Assembly: GCA_030145485.1 (NCBI GenBank)
Contig: JAQYVP010000155.1
Span: 1 to 48,238 of the forward strand
Length of the DNA stretch: 48,238 nt
Direction: 5' to 3'
Origin: Chromatiales bacterium
GTDB lineage: Bacteria; Pseudomonadota; Gammaproteobacteria; Chromatiales; Chromatiaceae
Part shown: positions 3,861-48,150 of the stretch, piece after piece
How the letters are laid out: each line of letters opens with the position of its first letter
Numbering within the stretch: position 1 is the first letter of the stretch
Position numbers and translations under genes: made by a program
Notes under the pieces: generated by a model
The model's input: only the letters and a program-made list of their open reading frames with translations
Told to the model about the DNA's origin: nothing
The model's database searches: none

Positions 3861-3975
3861 CAGTAAGCAGGGTTGGGAGTCTGCTTTTCAGGGCTGTATA
3901 AAACAGGGATGTTTTATCAGAGCTTACATGGACGTATTCACGCGTCCCTGAAAGGCTGATCCCGACCCTGTGCAG
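3861..3975. repeat. Family C palindromic repeat, copy 1
   Basis: An imperfect palindrome between perM and the AdoMet decarboxylase gene. Outer arms GCAGGGTTGGG and CCCGACCCTG pair, inside them CTTTTCAGG pairs with CCTGAAAGG, and the centre carries AACAGGGATGTTTTATCAG. A second copy with the same order lies at 48036-48150. Confidence 0.85.
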
Positions 3976-7979: not shown

Positions 7980-8312
7980 TGAAAATACTCGCTGTAGTTC
8001 AAAATGGATGGCTCAACCTGATTCAGGATGACTGCTGCTCAGGAGCAGGCGACTATATCACTATCCAATGGAATCCCCATTCCATCAGCAATTCTAAATG
8101 TAGAGAGATTACTCACCACGAAGGAGACGAAGAGCACGAAGGCATTTTTATAAACAGTTGATTCTTCGTGGTCTTCGTGTGCTTCGTGGTAAAAGTCTTT
8201 TAAAATATCGACATTTTATAGGTACGTTGAGAATTGCTACCATCCCATAGATTGATTCAGCGTTTTCCCGGACAACTGATATAATAGACGGTGAAAAGAG
8301 CCAGGAATCAAC
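7980..8312. other. Intergenic region between divergent zwf and DUF3581 genes
   Basis: This gap carries a family A hairpin element (8083-8215) and then an AT-rich promoter-like stretch. A TATAAT hexamer at 8280-8285 is a plausible -10 for the plus-strand gene, but no well-spaced -35 is obvious. No gene is seen. Confidence 0.5.
8083..8215. repeat. Family A hairpin element (CACGAAG type)
   Basis: The left arm has repeated ACGAAG units starting at ACCACGAAGG (8115). The right arm has the complementary TTCGTGG units ending at 8190, so the transcript would fold into a long hairpin. Read in reverse complement, the element and its flanks match the copy at 30126-30252, from TATCGACAT at one end to ATTGCTGAT at the other. 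The homologous unit is therefore about 130 bp, larger than the hairpin. Confidence 0.85.
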
Positions 8313-13611: not shown

Positions 13612-13645
13612 ATCTGCTTCTATTCATCATTATTGACTAGCGAAA

Positions 13646-13885
13646 CCTGGTCTCAGAGTGACGAGGCGTGAAAAAATTATTTTCTCTCGCCAAGGCCCTA
13701 AGACCGCAAAGATTTTTCTTGGCGAACTTGACCTACATGGATGTAGGTCAGGGGCGTGAGCAGGGATGCGGAAGCTTTGCGGCTTCGCCTGCATGGACGC
13801 CAGGTGAGGGGCGTGAGCAGGACGCGGAAGCTTTGCGAGAGTTATTATTGAAATTTGACGCATTTGTGAGGTTGTCAATTATTCA
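13646..13885 (-). repeat. Family B modular repeat, copy 1 (between carA and carB)
   Basis: A 240 bp element in the carA-carB gap. In the minus orientation it reads from the end block with ACAACCTCACAAATG through CTCTCGCAAAGCTTCCGCG to GCGAGAGAAAATAATT and CTCTGAGACC. It is longer than other copies because the GAGCAGG-GCGGAAGCTTTGCG module is duplicated. The GCAAAG/CTTTGCG and CTCTCGC/GCGAGAG parts are inverted, giving a large imperfect hairpin. Confidence 0.85.
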
Positions 13886-13890
13886 GGGAG

Positions 13891-15024
13891 TCACATTGAC
13901 TGTTTCATCAAGTCGATGAAGTGATCAAATACCGGCGCGACATCATGCGGTCCGGGACTGGCCTCGGGATGCCCCTGAAAACTGAATGCGGGCTTGCGGG
14001 TATGATGAATCCCCTGCAGGGAGCCATCGAAAAGAGACCTGTGAGTCGCCTCGAGATGCGGCGGCAGACTAGCCTCATCCACCGCAAAACCATGGTTCTG
14101 GCTGGAAATCATCACTTCACCCGTCTCGATGACCTGCACAGGGTGGTTGGCGCCATGATGGCCAAACTTCATCTTCACACTGCTCGCGCCGCAGGCAAGC
14201 CCCAGCAGCTGATGTCCAAGGCAGATGCCGAAGATGGGGATATTGGTCTCCAGCAGCTGCTGAATCGCCTCGATGGCGTAGAGACACGGCTCGGGATCAC
14301 CCGGACCATTGGAGAGAAAGATACCGTCCGGTGACATTGCCAGCACATCCTGCGCAGGAGTCTGAGCAGGGACCACGGTCACCCTGCAGCCACGATCTAC
14401 CAGCATGCGTAAAATATTGCGTTTGACGCCAAAATCATAGGCCACGACATGAAAGTCATGCTGTGCATCATCAACAAGCTGGTAGCCCTCTTCGAGCGAC
14501 CAGACTCCCTCATCCCAGCAATAATCGGCTGTCGTGGTGACCTCCTTTGCCAGATCCATGCCCTTCAGGCCAGCAAATGCCTGTGCAACTGTCAGCGCCT
14601 TTGACTCCTCGATATTTGAACCGCTTATCAGGCAGCCGTTCTGCGCACCCTTCTCGCGTAAAATCCTTGTCAGGCGGCGGGTATCGATATTGGCGATAGC
14701 CACGATCTTGTGACGCTTCAAATAATCCTGAAGAGACTCCTGGCTGCGCCAGTTGCTGGCGATCATCGGCAGGTCACGGATGATCAGGCCAGCTGCATGC
14801 ACAGTTGAAGACTCTTCATCTTCGCTATTGATGCCGGTATTGCCGATATGCGGATAGGTCAGGGTGACGAGTTGTCGCCGATAGGAGGGGTCGGTCAGAA
14901 TCTCCTGATAGCCTGTCATCGAAGTATTGAATACCACTTCGCCAACAGATTCTCCGTCTGCACCGATTGATTCGCCACGAAACATACAGCCATCTTCCAA
15001 AACCAGAAGTGCGGAGTTATTCAC
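13891..15024 (-). CDS. carA: Carbamoyl-phosphate synthase small subunit
   Basis: The glutamine amidotransferase subunit that hydrolyses glutamine and tunnels ammonia to CarB. From the GTG start it is 377 residues, normal for the family. The N-terminal CarA-specific domain (about 1-150) is followed by a class I amidotransferase domain. Its nucleophile Cys268 is in GICLGHQ and the His/Glu pair in [16 protein letters not shown] at 15024 is chosen because AGAGG lies 7 nt upstream; the in-frame ATG at 15066 would add 14 residues outside the family start. The upstream 40 nt contain no obvious PyrH/ArgR box that I can assign with confidence. Confidence 0.96.
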
Positions 15025-15297: not shown

Positions 15298-15732
15298 TTA
15301 CAAAATGCTCCTCACCCACTGCAGTAGCTGCGACGCCTGCATCGCTCCCGCCTGGCGCGCCACCTCCTTGCCTCCCTTGAAGATGGCAATGGTAGGAATA
15401 CTGCGGATATCGAACTGTGCCGCGAGATTCTGGTTTTTCTCGGTATCGACTTTCAGCAGCCGCACCTGCGGCTCCAACTCTGTTGCCGCCTGAGCAAACA
15501 TCGGCGCCATCATTTTGCAGGGTCCGCACCACTCGGCCCAGAAATCCACCAGCAGCGGCACATCCGAGCGGATGATTTGGCGCTGGAAAGCAGCCTCATC
15601 GACTTCCAGCGGCCTTCCCTGGAACAACGGCTGGCTGCACTTTCCGCATTTTGGATGATCACTCAGGCGCGCTGCGGGAATGCGATTGACACCCTGGCAG
15701 TGCGGGCAAACAATGTGGATTTGATCGGACAT
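15298..15732 (-). CDS. trxC: Thioredoxin 2 (zinc-binding thioredoxin TrxC)
   Basis: A cytoplasmic disulfide reductase with an extra N-terminal zinc finger. From ATG 15732 it is 144 residues. The zinc ligands are Cys9, Cys12, Cys29 and Cys32 (CPHC and CGKC). The thioredoxin fold follows, with the canonical active site WCGPC (Cys69/Cys72) and the cis-proline region RSIPTIAIF. Three upstream in-frame codons from 15741 give an alternative start. TrxC genes are often part of the peroxide response; no OxyR site is evident here. Confidence 0.95.
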   Translation of the reverse strand: MSDQIHIVCPHCQGVNRIPAARLSDHPKCGKCSQPLFQGRPLEVDEAAFQRQIIRSDVPLLVDFWAEWCGPCKMMAPMFAQAATELEPQVRLLKVDTEKNQNLAAQFDIRSIPTIAIFKGGKEVARQAGAMQASQLLQWVRSIL

Positions 15733-15814
15733 AGGATGCACTCAATGATTTCCAATGAAACAGATATGGGGTTTCTGCAACTCTATTTCAATCCAGGAGA
15801 TACCTAAAAAAGAT

Positions 15815-16024
15815 AACCACGAAAGTCACGAAAAGCACGAAAAGCACGAAAAAAAGAGCTATGATCGAATGGTGCTGCGGAAAGCCAAAATCAACGCCAT
15901 CCCAGCCAATGAGCATGCTCCCTGGATACCGGCATTCGCCGGTATGACGAATCAGTTAATCGAATAGAGGTTTTCAGCTTGGTGAGCGCCATTCGATTAT
16001 TATTTTTTCGTGCTTTTCGTGGTA
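15815..16024. repeat. Family A hairpin with an interrupted centre
   Basis: The left arm AACCACGAAAGTCACGAAAA and right arm TTTTTCGTGCTTTTCGTGGT pair as in the other copies. The pairing continues inward (ATGATCGAATGGTGC with GCGCCATTCGATTATT). About 110 bp then separate the inner ends, including the small palindrome ATACCGGCATTCGCCGGTAT. The layout suggests insertion of one repeat into another. Confidence 0.7.
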
Positions 16025-19027: not shown

Positions 19028-19888
19028 ATGTCTGAATCCCCCTACGTTATTGATGTCACAGCCGAGAACTTTCAGGCGGTTATCCTCGAAGGCTCCATGG
19101 TGCAGCCTGTTCTGGTCGATTTCTGGGCCGACTGGTGTCAACCCTGCAAGACACTGATGCCAATACTGGCAAAGCTTGCGCATGAGTACCAGGGCGCCTT
19201 TGTGCTGGCAAAAATCAATACCGAAGAGCAGCAGGAGTTAGCCGGACAGTTCCAGATTCGCAGCATCCCTGCCTGCAAACTGTTTGTGAACGGTCAAATG
19301 GTCGATGAGTTTACCGGCGCCCTGCCTGAAGAGCAGCTTCGCACCTTTCTTGACAAACACGTCTCACATGAAGCCGATAATTTTGCCGGGGAGGTACAGC
19401 AGTTGCTTCAGCAGGGCGACGCAGATGCCGCTGCGGATTTGATTGCGCAGGCCCTTAAAGAGAATCCTGCCGATTCACGCGCCATCATTGCCTTTGCCAA
19501 ACTCAAGGCGAGCATCGGCGAAAGTGATGCAGCACAGCAGGCACTCGACTCCCTGCCCGAGGATGAGCAGAAAAAGCCTGAAGTTGCAGCCATGCGGGCG
19601 CAGATTGTGTTCGACGAAGTCACCATTAATGCACCTCCCCTCGAAGAGCTCGAAAAAGCTGTCACTGCTGACTCAGACGACAGTGAAGCACGCTACCAAC
19701 TGGCTGCGCAGCTGGTAATGCATAATCAGCTGGAAGCGGCCCTGGATCAACTGATGATACTGCTGCAGAAAGATCGCAGCTATGGAGATGATGCAGCACG
19801 CAAGGCGATGATCCAGGTATTCGACATTCTGGGTGAGCATCCCATTACTGCGAAATACCGTGGCCGCATGTTCGGTTACCTACACTAA
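19028..19888 (+). CDS. cnoX: CnoX/YbbN-like thioredoxin-TPR co-chaperone
   Basis: A 286-residue protein with an N-terminal thioredoxin domain (about 1-112) and C-terminal TPR-like helices (about 118-280), the layout of CnoX (YbbN), a chaperedoxin that guards clients for GroEL and DnaK under oxidative stress. The active site is WADWCQPC with both cysteines (Cys37 and Cys40), whereas E. coli CnoX has lost the first one and lacks reductase activity. This copy may therefore be redox active. The cis-Pro region RSIPACKLF contains an additional Cys. No clear Shine-Dalgarno is visible before ATG 19028. Confidence 0.88.
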   Translation: MSESPYVIDVTAENFQAVILEGSMVQPVLVDFWADWCQPCKTLMPILAKLAHEYQGAFVLAKINTEEQQELAGQFQIRSIPACKLFVNGQMVDEFTGALPEEQLRTFLDKHVSHEADNFAGEVQQLLQQGDADAAADLIAQALKENPADSRAIIAFAKLKASIGESDAAQQALDSLPEDEQKKPEVAAMRAQIVFDEVTINAPPLEELEKAVTADSDDSEARYQLAAQLVMHNQLEAALDQLMILLQKDRSYGDDAARKAMIQVFDILGEHPITAKYRGRMFGYLH

Positions 19889-19892
19889 AATT

Positions 19893-20052
19893 CTTGAGTG
19901 ATCGACATCTTTACAAATGAGGAAAATGTCAATAACCGATAATGACTCTCGCAAAGTCGCAAAGCACGCCAAGAAAACCCTTTGCGGTCTTAGCATTTTT
20001 GCGAGAGAAAATCATCTATTTATGCCCCGTCAGTCTGAGGCATGTTCTCGAT
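19893..20052 (+). repeat. Family B modular repeat, copy 2 (left of glycosyltransferase)
   Basis: Runs from TTGAGTGATCGACATCTTT through ACTCTCGCAAAG, a short core lacking the CTTCCGCG module, GCGAGAGAAAATCAT and GTCAGTCTGAGGCATG to TTCTCG. It ends 2 nt before the start codon of the glycosyltransferase gene. Copy 3 lies in the opposite orientation at the other end of that gene. Confidence 0.85.
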
Positions 20053-20054
20053 AG

Positions 20055-20939
20055 ATGGACCTTTCCGTCTCAGTCATTATCCCGACATTTAACAGGGCGG
20101 ATGTGCTTGGGCGCGCAATTGAATCTGTACTGCAGCAGAGCCTGCCGGCGAAAGAGATCATTATCGTCGATGATGGCTCCGACGATCATACGCAACAAGT
20201 GGTGGCGGCATTGCATCGCAGTGCTGTTGTTCCCATCAGCATCCTCTATCAGAAAAACTCCGGTGTCAGCGCTGCCCGCAACAGCGGCATCCGTCACGCC
20301 AATGGAGAGTGGATCGCATTTCTCGACTCGGATGATGCCTGGCTCCATGACAAGCTGAAAAATCAGGCGGGTCTGATTGCACAACATCCGGGTTTTCGTC
20401 TGTGCCACACGCAGGAGAACTGGATTCGCAACGGCGTACAGATCAAGCAGATGAAAAAACACGCCAAAAGCGGCGGCCATATTTTCCAGCAGTGCCTGCC
20501 GCTGTGTGTCATCTCTCCCTCTTCGGTGGTGATTCATCGCTCACTTTTCGACGCTGTCGGACTCTTTGACGAGACTCTGCCTGCCTGTGAAGATTACGAT
20601 CTGTGGCTGCGCATCTGCGCGCATGAAGCAGTGCTGTATGTCGACACCCCGCAGATTCTCAAATATGGCGGCCATGACGACCAGTTGTCGCGCAAATACT
20701 GGGGAATGGATCGTTTCCGCATCAAGGCGCTGCAGAAAATTCTGCAGGATCCAGGGCTAGACAAGAGCCAGCAGCAGCTTGTTGTCAAAACCCTGCGATA
20801 CAAAGCCGGCATACTCCGCCAGGGGGCCGAGAAGCGCAACAATCAACTCAGAGCGGATAAATACAGAAAAATCGAAGCCACCTGTAGCAACCTGCTGGAG
20901 AAAACTGGCGAGACCAAGGTTCAGACTGACGAAGCATGA
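20055..20939 (+). CDS. GT2-family glycosyltransferase between inverted family B repeats
   Basis: A 294-residue GT-A-fold transferase of family 2, which would move a sugar from a nucleotide-sugar donor onto a glycan or lipid acceptor. The N-terminal block VSVIIPTFNRADVLGRAIES, the donor motif VDDGSDD (38-44) and metal-binding DSDD (91-94) are clear; the catalytic-base region is near ACEDYDLWLR (about 181-190). The C-terminus is Lys/Gln rich and has no membrane segment. Start and stop abut repeats: ATG is 2 nt after copy 2, and the last nine codons (ETKVQTDEA) lie within copy 3. No Shine-Dalgarno is well placed. Acceptor unknown; no glycan cluster surrounds it. Confidence 0.9.
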   Translation: MDLSVSVIIPTFNRADVLGRAIESVLQQSLPAKEIIIVDDGSDDHTQQVVAALHRSAVVPISILYQKNSGVSAARNSGIRHANGEWIAFLDSDDAWLHDKLKNQAGLIAQHPGFRLCHTQENWIRNGVQIKQMKKHAKSGGHIFQQCLPLCVISPSSVVIHRSLFDAVGLFDETLPACEDYDLWLRICAHEAVLYVDTPQILKYGGHDDQLSRKYWGMDRFRIKALQKILQDPGLDKSQQQLVVKTLRYKAGILRQGAEKRNNQLRADKYRKIEATCSNLLEKTGETKVQTDEA

Positions 20940-21113
20940 AAGAGATCATTTTCTCTCGCAAAGACGCCAAGACCGCAAAGATTTTTCTTGGCGAGCTTGG
21001 CCTACATGGATGTAGGTCAGGGGCGTGAGCAGGGATGCGGAAGCTTTGCGAGAGTCATGATTATAATTTGATTCATGCAAAAAGATGTTGATCACTCAAA
21101 GATTGCTAGTGTT
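20908..21113 (-). repeat. Family B modular repeat, copy 3 (right of glycosyltransferase)
   Basis: Inverted relative to copy 2. It starts GCGAGACCAAGGTTCAGACTG inside the 3' end of the glycosyltransferase gene, contains TTTTCTCTCGCAAAGACGCC and GCGGAAGCTTTGCGAGAGTCA, and ends at AAGATGTTGATCACTCAAAG, the complement of the copy 2 terminus. Confidence 0.85.
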
Positions 21114-21127
21114 TCTCCGGAGCAGCC

Positions 21128-21712
21128 ATGATCTGTTTTGTCATCGCCTATAAAGCCGAAGCTGCTTCATTGATCAGTCACTACCGGCTCGAGCTACAGC
21201 AACAGCAGGAATTCCCGCTCTATAGCGCTGAAGATATCGCACTGGTGATTTGCGGCAGCGGTAAGAGCAATGCAGCAGCGGCCACGGCATACCTGTATGG
21301 AAAAACAGGCTTTCATCGCGATGCCATATGGATCAATTTCGGCATTGCCGGTCATGCCGTCGATGCTCCAGGCAGCGTCTATGTGGCGAGCAAAGTTATT
21401 GATGTTGCAACAGAGCGTGTTTTACATCTCGCGCTTCCCGACAAGCCTCCATGGAAAACAGCGGCTTTATATACCTATGATCAACCTCACAGGGGTGGTC
21501 AGCGCGACAAGGGGGTATTTGACATGGAGGCCAGCGGCTTTGCTTTTACCGCCAGACGTTTTTCGCAATCGCAGTTCGTGCATTGCATCAAGCTCATCAC
21601 GGATAATTGCAATACCTCCATTGAGATCCCTGCTTCAGCGACGTTTGAGCAGTGGATGATGCCGCAGATGCATCCTCTTGATAGCTTTCTACACGCACTT
21701 CTTCAGGTATAG
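21128..21712 (+). CDS. Nucleoside phosphorylase-like protein (MTA/SAH nucleosidase superfamily)
   Basis: A 194-residue protein with the PNP/UDP-phosphorylase fold. VICGSGKSNAAAATAYL gives the phosphate-loop-like glycine motif, WINFGIAGHA matches the conserved NxGxAG strand, and GVFDMEASGFAFTA holds the ribose-binding Met-Glu. It is shorter than E. coli MtnN (about 232) and the ribose/base regions differ, so the substrate is uncertain: MTA/SAH nucleosidase, or a hopanoid-type adenosylhopane phosphorylase relative are both possible. GGAG sits 6 nt before the ATG. The SDR gene begins 5 nt after the stop, suggesting one operon. Confidence 0.8.
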   Translation: MICFVIAYKAEAASLISHYRLELQQQQEFPLYSAEDIALVICGSGKSNAAAATAYLYGKTGFHRDAIWINFGIAGHAVDAPGSVYVASKVIDVATERVLHLALPDKPPWKTAALYTYDQPHRGGQRDKGVFDMEASGFAFTARRFSQSQFVHCIKLITDNCNTSIEIPASATFEQWMMPQMHPLDSFLHALLQV

Positions 21713-21717
21713 AACAG

Positions 21718-22419
21718 ATGAACAGCCAAAGCACATGTCTGGTCACAGGCTGCAGCCGTGGAATCGGCGCCGCCATCTCTCATCGTCTGCTCGAAATGGG
21801 CCACCATGTGATCGGTATCAGCCGCAACCTGCCGGAGTTCAGTCCAGAGAATTTTACGCATATCACCGCCGATCTCAGTGATCTTCGCTCACTGCCAGGA
21901 ATTCTCAATGACATCGCAACCATCTGCGCCACTCCTGATGGAGTGATACTGAATGCCGGCCAGGGGGTTTTCGGCTCCCTGGAACAGTTCTCAGTACTAC
22001 GCATCGAGCAACTGATCAACCTCAACCTCACCAGCCAGATACTGATCGCACGGAAATTTCTGCCCTCGATGAAGAGCAAACAAAGCGGCAATCTGATCTT
22101 TATAGGTTCGGAAGCAGCGCTCGCCGGCGGCAGAAACGGCGCGGTCTACTGCGCCACCAAGTTTGGTCTGCGCGGACTGGTGCAATCACTGCAGGAGGAG
22201 TGTTCCGCCAGCGGCATACGCGTCGGCATTATCAATCCCGGCATGGTCAACACCTCCTTTTTTGATGAACTCGGCTTCCAGCCCGGCGACAAACCTGATC
22301 AGCATCTGATTGCCGAGGATGTCGCCGAAGCCGCGCTGTTGATGTTGAATGCAAGAGCGGGCGCGGTGATACAGGAGATCAATCTGCAGCCGCAGAAGAA
22401 GGTGATCCGGTTTTTGTAA
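21718..22419 (+). CDS. Short-chain dehydrogenase/reductase
   Basis: A 233-residue classical SDR oxidoreductase using NAD(P)H. Cofactor motif TGCSRGIG (10-17), NAG at 79-81, catalytic Ser131 (FIGSEAAL) and YCATK with Tyr144 and Lys148 are all present. The Arg14 just inside the glycine motif is usual for NADP preference. It ends with QPQKKVIRFL, similar to uncharacterised YciK-like SDRs. Co-transcription with the nucleoside phosphorylase-like gene (5 nt gap) suggests they act in one pathway, but the substrate cannot be read from sequence. Confidence 0.92.
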   Translation: MNSQSTCLVTGCSRGIGAAISHRLLEMGHHVIGISRNLPEFSPENFTHITADLSDLRSLPGILNDIATICATPDGVILNAGQGVFGSLEQFSVLRIEQLINLNLTSQILIARKFLPSMKSKQSGNLIFIGSEAALAGGRNGAVYCATKFGLRGLVQSLQEECSASGIRVGIINPGMVNTSFFDELGFQPGDKPDQHLIAEDVAEAALLMLNARAGAVIQEINLQPQKKVIRFL

Positions 22420-22453
22420 TATCGTATTCCATCATTGAGACTGGAAAAAGATG

Positions 22454-22536
22454 AACCACGAAAGTCACGAACTGCACGAAAAACAGGAACAATCAGATTA
22501 TCTTTTTTCGTGATTTTCGTGTCTTTCGTGGTAAAA
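22454..22536. repeat. Family A hairpin element (CACGAAA type)
   Basis: AACCACGAAAGTCACGAAC on the left pairs with TTTTCGTGTCTTTCGTGGT on the right. It lies between convergent SDR and parE genes, where it could terminate both. Confidence 0.85.
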
Positions 22537-25048: not shown

Positions 25049-25187
25049 CTTTGTTTTCCAAATTCATGTAGTATAGTAATGATAACCCTCAGGAGCCTGT
25101 CCGAGAATAAAAAAGCTGTTGCGGACATCAATCAAAAGGTAGCATCTCAATAACTCAGTGCATTTATTACATTATTTTAAACAGATA

Positions 25188-25264
25188 TCATTGCAAGGAG
25201 CCAGAGGCGACACGGCAACCTGATATGGAGATTGCCGCGGTCGCTTAGGCTCCCTCGCAATGAC
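25188..25264. repeat. Palindromic TCATTGC...GCAATGA repeat
   Basis: TCATTGCAAGGAGCC and GGCTCCCTCGCAATGA form the outer arms, and CGGCAACC with GATTGCCGCGG lie inside. This type of TCATTGCGAGG hairpin is dispersed in many proteobacteria. It lies in the 278 bp gap between divergent CNP1-like and xseB genes; only one copy is in this window. Confidence 0.8.
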
Positions 25265-25326
25265 AGCATTCATACTGGCTTCTTAAAACATATAACAAAT
25301 GAATCAGACAAGAGAACCCTAATCCG

Positions 25327-27843: not shown

Positions 27844-27844
27844 A

Positions 27845-28053
27845 CTATTACCCTTGAGTAGCCAACATTTTTACAAATGAGTCAAATTTCAATAATAACT
27901 CTCGCAAAGCTTCCGCGTCCTGCTCACGCCCCTCACCTGGCGTCCATGCAGGCGAAGCCGCAAAGCTCGCCAAGAAAACCCTTTGCGTTCTTGGCGTCTT
28001 AGCGAGAGAAAATAATCATTTCCATGCAGCGTCAGTCTGAGACCTGATCTCGC
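27845..28053 (+). repeat. Family B modular repeat, copy 4
   Basis: Contains GTAGCCAACATTTTTAC, AATAACTCTCGCAAAGCTTC, TCGCCAAGAAAACCC, GCGAGAGAAAATAAT and GTCAGTCTGAGACCTG. It fills the space between gloA and the thiC stop. Confidence 0.85.
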
Positions 28054-28058
28054 AAGTA

Positions 28059-30073
<2,015 letters not shown>

Positions 30074-30125
30074 TGGGTGGTAGTATAACCTATCTTCGCG
30101 AAGCAATTCTCAATGTACTAATTAA

Positions 30126-30252
30126 AGTATCGACATCTTAAAAAACTTTTACCACGAAGCTCACGAAGACCACGAAGAATCAAATAGATACAAAAATGTC
30201 TTCGTGTCCTTCGTGGTGAATATCTCTCTATATTCAGGATTGCTGATCTTCA
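30126..30252. repeat. Family A element, close match to 8083-8215
   Basis: TTTTACCACGAAGCTCACG and ACCACGAAGAATCAA are shared with the reverse complement of 8083-8215, together with outer TATCGACAT and GATTGCTGAT. The hairpin right arm (TTCGTGTCCTTCGTGGT) is one unit shorter than the left. Confidence 0.85.
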
Positions 30253-33902: not shown

Positions 33903-34105
33903 TTCTCTAGTAATCCTTTAGTGGCCAACATCTGTACATATAATCAAATTTCAATAATGACTCTCGCAAAGCTTCCGCATCCCTGCTCACGCCCCTGACC
34001 TACATCCATGTAGGCCAAGCTCGCCAAGAAAAACCTTTGCGCTCTTGGCGTCTTGGCGAGAGAAAATGTTTTTTATGCCTTGCCAGTCTGAGGCTTAGTC
34101 TCGCT
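33903..34105 (+). repeat. Family B modular repeat, copy 5
   Basis: Contains GTGGCCAACATCTGTAC, AATGACTCTCGCAAAGCTTC, TCGCCAAGAAAAACC, GCGAGAGAAAATG and CCAGTCTGAGGCTTAG to TCTCGC. It lies between orn and the A-type carrier gene. Confidence 0.85.
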
Positions 34106-48035: not shown

Positions 48036-48150
48036 GCAGGAAGCAGGGTTGGGATTTTCCTTTCAGGGCTGTAGAAAACAGGGATGTTTTATCAGAACGT
48101 ACAGGGACGTATTCACAGCGGCGCTGAAAGGAAAAACCCGACCCTGCACA
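48036..48150. repeat. Family C palindromic repeat, copy 2
   Basis: GCAGGGTTGGGATTTTCC and CCTTTCAGGGC on the left; GCGCTGAAAGG and AAAAACCCGACCCTGC on the right; the centre has AACAGGGATGTTTTATCAG as in copy 1. Here the arms are closer to perfect than in copy 1. Confidence 0.85.

Follow-up and report, generated by a model that had tools for sequence, protein, structure and literature searches.

Two probably independent insertions of a MITE-like repeat at CTAG sites border a conserved glycosyltransferase gene

A GT2 glycosyltransferase gene in the window, by which we mean the whole 48,238-nt stretch of DNA that was analyzed, lies between two inverted copies of a dispersed repeat. We consider it very probable (roughly 0.93) that the gene is a long-standing resident of its locus and that a MITE-like sequence, which targets CTAG and duplicates 4 bp on insertion, arrived beside it twice and independently without having carried the gene in. 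The gene is conserved among relatives, the insertions are polymorphic, the repeat prefers CTAG and duplicates 4 bp of its target, and one of the copies has supplied the protein with a new C-terminus. The opposite orientations of the two copies would be a coincidence, mobilization was presumably provided in trans by some enzyme, and the insertions may have been nearly neutral in effect.

The GT2 gene (20055..20939, forward strand) encodes a protein of 294 amino acids that matches PF00535 with an E-value of 9.3e-34. It was originally predicted to stand alone but is instead a member of a conserved cluster, cnoX-GT2-nucleosidase-SDR, with cnoX (thioredoxin-TPR; 19028..19888) upstream and a nucleosidase/phosphorylase-like gene (21128..21712, start ATG at 21128) and an SDR gene (21718..22419) downstream, all on the forward strand. 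A search of 54 other genomes found close relatives of GT2 in 20 of them. In relatives from the same and other genera the nucleosidase-like gene commonly comes next after it, often with the SDR gene as well, and cnoX lies 5' of it in several relatives whose fetched stretch extends that far. A small DUF1244-like gene, identified by eye, lies between cnoX and GT2 in G004, a 56% complete genome of the same genus as the window, and in G010, from another genus, and neither has a repeat on either side of GT2. The row cnoX-(DUF1244-like)-GT2-nucleosidase-SDR is likewise kept, free of repeats, in relatives from other genera, and GT2 overlaps the nucleosidase gene by ATGA in G005, G002 and G004, all of the same genus, as well as in G010. 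Judging from this gene order, GT2 has long belonged to the row. An inverted match of 60 nt (75%) between 15500-15559 and 19105-19164 of the window probably reflects two thioredoxin-like genes and not a repeat.

Two ends define the repeat, A (CTAGCGAGACCAGGTCTCAGACTGACGAGGCATGAAAGAGATCATTTTCTCTCGC) and B (CTAGTAATCCTTGAGTGACCAACATCTTTACAAATGAGTCAAATTTCAATAATGACTCTCGC). The left copy (19889..20050, forward strand) runs from B-end to A-end, and the right copy (20909..21105, reverse strand) lies from A-end to B-end. Their inverted orientation and their distances from GT2 are as originally predicted, and so are the matching outer ends (TTGAGTGATCGACATCTTT at 19894-19912 and AAGATGTTGATCACTCAA at 21082-21099), the start of the right copy at 20909 inside the end of the GT2 ORF (20055-20939) and the lack of a transposase between the copies. 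On the forward strand, the left copy is flanked by CTAA (19885..19888), which includes the cnoX stop TAA, and by ATAG (20051..20054), which adjoins the GT2 ATG at 20055; both are CTAG in G005. The right copy is flanked by CTGG (20905..20908) and CTAG (21106..21109), beyond which the displaced original 3' end of GT2, TGTTTCTCCGGAGCAGCCATGA (21110..21131, forward strand), recognized by comparison with the empty sites of G005 and G002, overlaps the nucleosidase start ATG at 21128. The two copies are of different size types, the left having 162 nt with a short core and the right 197 nt with an additional core module of about 47 nt. They are 82.6% identical, close to their median identities with other copies (81.3 and 82.9%, respectively), and each has closer relatives elsewhere than the other.

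The flanking pair is no chance resemblance, for the window contains five copies, and the stretches sampled from its genome (G000) yielded 52 distinct verified copies that have both ends. First-look counts there gave 131-194 candidates, unverified, which suggests that the genome holds more than the 52. The window copies score 31-48 for the A and B ends, against a best score of 14 in one shuffled window. Lengths of the verified copies cluster at 156-171 and 196-215 nt, with two of about 260, and the longer size type results from the additional core module of about 47 nt (around CCTACATGGATGTAGG), which at the orthologous site L025 is present in G000 and absent in G005 and G002. The other copies in the window are at 13637..13893 (reverse strand, about 256 nt, with the core module twice), 27844..28056 and 33907..34105 (both forward strand). 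Most copies lie between genes or at gene ends. The repeat has a hairpin core and two unlike ends, and at 156-261 nt in 52 distinct full copies, with no space for a transposase ORF, it is short, non-coding and multicopy in the manner of a MITE. Terminal inverted repeats were tested for and not found, the A and B ends sharing only a weak 12-nt stretch that is out of register, and the element is therefore named MITE-like and not MITE. At another locus (L153, 1501-1769) two copies form a tandem pair, apparently with one CTAG in common.

Strong matches to the repeat occur in G001, G002, G003 and G005, and among the genomes searched the full-length form is confined to the window's genus. No strong match was found in G004 (56% complete), and genomes outside the genus have only pieces of the core. 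One of these, G042, from another family, carries a matching 48-nt core piece without the repeat ends in at least 14 copies (for example in L057 near 1501). The named genomes in which an exact 37-nt core occurs all come from uncultured Gammaproteobacteria (isolates CSMAG_134, CSMAG_317, CSMAG_2860 and Sva-25).

CTAG is rare in this DNA: base composition predicts 186 occurrences in the 48-kb window, and only 8 are found outside the repeats. Yet 43 of the 104 repeat ends have a CTAG no more than 3 nt away. The neighboring ORF ends exactly at the end of the target 4-mer in 9 of 52 copies, an approximate count from mechanically called ORFs, so that the stop codon lies inside the target; CTAG ends none of the 45 ORFs of the window. 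Target site duplication, a further trait of MITEs, is seen as CTAG pairs and as empty sites with an exact 4-nt gap or a single CTAG. Six sites occupied in G000 are empty in at least one relative. The site of the right copy at GT2 is empty in G002 and G005, and those at 27.8k and 33.9k of the window are empty in G002, where the latter keeps a single CTAG; at the 27.8k junction a 5-nt duplication fits better than one of 4 nt. Elsewhere, L025 has a single CTAG in G001 where G000 has CTAG-repeat-CTAG, L003 is empty in G001 and G003 and L023 in G003, each with a gap of exactly 4 nt, and all three of these sites are occupied in other relatives. Most of the sites thus demonstrate insertion with a 4-bp duplication.

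At the left junction, G005 has the orthologous copy (L033) in the same place within a perfect CTAG/CTAG frame, CACTAG-repeat-CTAGATGG. With this copy removed the sequence becomes CACTAGATGG, in which the cnoX stop TAG immediately precedes the GT2 ATG. The left insertion would thus have occurred at a CTAG spanning the cnoX stop and the GT2 start (CACTAG|ATGG), and duplication of the CTAG would have kept both codons whole. Because the target CTAG sat at this boundary, the left repeat ends at the GT2 start codon. Before the insertion GT2 was probably coupled to cnoX, which may explain why it has no well-placed Shine-Dalgarno sequence. The empty state of the left site is a reconstruction, since the genus yielded no true empty site: in G001 the place is taken by an unrelated sequence, itself palindromic, and the contigs of G002 and G003 end.

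The other insertion would have hit a CTAG in the last codons of GT2. It would have exchanged the original C-terminus for ten residues and a stop codon encoded by the repeat, and parted the gene from its ATGA overlap with the nucleosidase gene. The A-end of the right copy encodes ETKVQTDEA and a stop in the GT2 frame, so that residues 286-294 lie inside the repeat and the codon of glycine 285 straddles the junction, giving GETKVQTDEA as the last ten residues. Removal of the repeat and one 4-mer from G000 restores an in-frame end, EQP and a stop, versus EKQP and a stop in G005 and G002, and this restored end again overlaps the nucleosidase start (ATGA). The span from a common landmark to the end of ATGA is then 27 + 22 = 49 nt, as it is in both G005 and G002 (49 nt each). 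The right site has a more complicated past, given what is found in G001 and G003. In both, the GT2 tail retains a remnant of the A-end, matching at 25 of 31 nt in G001 and less well in G003. The tails read TIETKSQIDKK and TIEAKSQIDKKQTGWQ, each followed by a stop and related to GETKVQTDEA, and both genomes have an aldo/keto reductase gene between this remnant and the nucleosidase gene. Probably a copy that was already present before the lineages of G001 and G003 split has since been replaced in part. The species tree of the genus is poorly resolved and too weak to order the events at this site. The aldo/keto reductase rearrangement at the former repeat site can be seen in L184 (G001:C104, 7765-9270) and L185 (G003:C313).

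That the repeats might serve as the start and stop context of GT2 was part of the original prediction. This is half borne out: the last ten residues and the stop codon come from the right copy, and the left one takes up the junction between cnoX and GT2. The repeats occupy these positions because CTAG targeting places them at gene ends, and no function was shown for either. An actual recruitment, in which the left copy would serve in 5' regulation or as a context for translation and the right copy would provide a working C-terminal tail and a 3' hairpin for the mRNA, is unlikely. The repeat-encoded tail with its relatives in G001 and G003 would be in keeping with such a role, as would the long hairpins into which both copies fold on either strand (z -2.6 to -3.9 versus mononucleotide shuffles). 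However, the hairpins are family-wide and expected from the palindromic core rather than specific to GT2, the tail lies past the GT2 domain and varies between species, and G005 and G002 manage without a repeat-encoded tail. Somewhat less probable still is that the repeats are old and were precisely excised in G002 and G005. The poor resolution of the species tree and the remnants in G001 and G003 leave some room for this, but the ATGA overlap is found also in G004 and G010, the empty state is therefore ancestral at the right site, and empty sites with a single CTAG or an exact 4-nt gap recur. Movement or inversion of the repeat-gene-repeat unit as one cassette, like a composite transposon, which had been proposed because two inverted copies of the same family stand close on either side of a single gene, is very improbable and fails on what the original prediction had itself set against it, namely GT2 at the same locus and in the same orientation in repeat-free relatives (G004 and G010), as well as on the independent presence and absence of the copies (G005 has only the left, and neither G002 nor G005 has the right), on separate flanking 4-mers for each copy with no single outer target duplication, on an identity like that of random pairs and far from near-identity, and on the absence of a transposase between them.

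Two independent insertions could produce such an arrangement by chance. If the genome has about 130 copies in 3 Mb, around five neighboring pairs within 900 bp are expected, of which about one would face inward. The repeat-GT2-repeat arrangement requires no special cause. The figure of about 130 is a first-look count; with only the 52 verified copies, the expectation is 0.8 pairs within 900 bp and 0.2 in this orientation.

No parent element was recognized among the DDE_Tnp_1 (PF01609) and Y1_Tnp (PF01797) loci of G000-G005, which do not have the A and B ends as termini. Specifically, the Y1 loci L116-L123 are without these ends except for L119, a contig-end fragment near one copy with two A-ends, and in the loci sampled we recognized no far-apart, unpaired ends with a gene between them. 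A speculative proposal, to which we give little weight, is that repeats without terminal inverted repeats are moved by a CTAG-targeting enzyme, and that CTAG, being nearly absent within genes and containing a stop codon, would allow harmless entry at gene ends, with the A-end as a ready-made in-frame tail and stop.

The behavior of the repeat family is of a familiar kind. YPAL/RU-2, a palindromic repeat of 168 bp in Yersinia, is likewise small and dispersed, with target duplication and no terminal inverted repeats (PMC2229807), but it differs in sequence and host, and the present repeat targets CTAG and has a variable core module. The 127-bp ERIC/RU-1 of enterobacteria is another small mobile repeat through which a conserved gene can lose its original C-terminus and stop and its protein gain a new one, as in ECA3499, an Erwinia amidase (PMC2759123). 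It carries TA at the ends and has short terminal inverted repeats, in contrast to the CTAG and two unlike ends seen here. Rickettsia palindromic elements are translated in frame within protein genes (PMC2229807), as the right copy is in part, although they are described inside ORFs whereas most copies of the present repeat are intergenic or sit at the ends of genes. GTAG-tagged REP sequences, associated with RAYT, are abundant extragenic palindromes found mostly downstream of genes (PMC3733652). The present family is similarly abundant, extragenic and palindromic, but REPs measure only 20-40 bp and carry their GTAG tag on one side. Identity with them was rejected on the length of about 160-260 bp, the CTAG on both sides and the Y1 loci described above, and identity with a composite transposon or gene cassette on the conservation of GT2 without repeats, the 82.6% identity and the separate 4-mers. 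Our literature search found no CTAG-targeting bacterial MITE of this kind and no description of this repeat family. The locus is a clean example of small mobile repeats coming to resemble designed gene boundaries. A gene end is preserved on target duplication because the target contains the stop codon, and the right copy illustrates a repeat that replaces a protein C-terminus and breaks a stop-start overlap.

Other repeats are also present in the window. Two further dispersed families, each with many matches in genomes of the same genus, are found at 25136-25284 and 30102-30245, and short intergenic arrays of CACGAA/TTCGTG 9-nt units, several in inverted pairs, at 8162-8194, 15797-15853, 22436-22536 and 30141-30221. 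An Rfam search of the window for structured RNA gave only a TPP riboswitch (RF00059, 70.7 bits; 29985-30076, reverse strand), which is away from the copies flanking GT2 and on the 5' side of the ORF at 28058-30035 (reverse strand). Finally, a 71-nt direct repeat of 85% identity occurs at 3871-3941 and 48046-48116, 44 kb apart.
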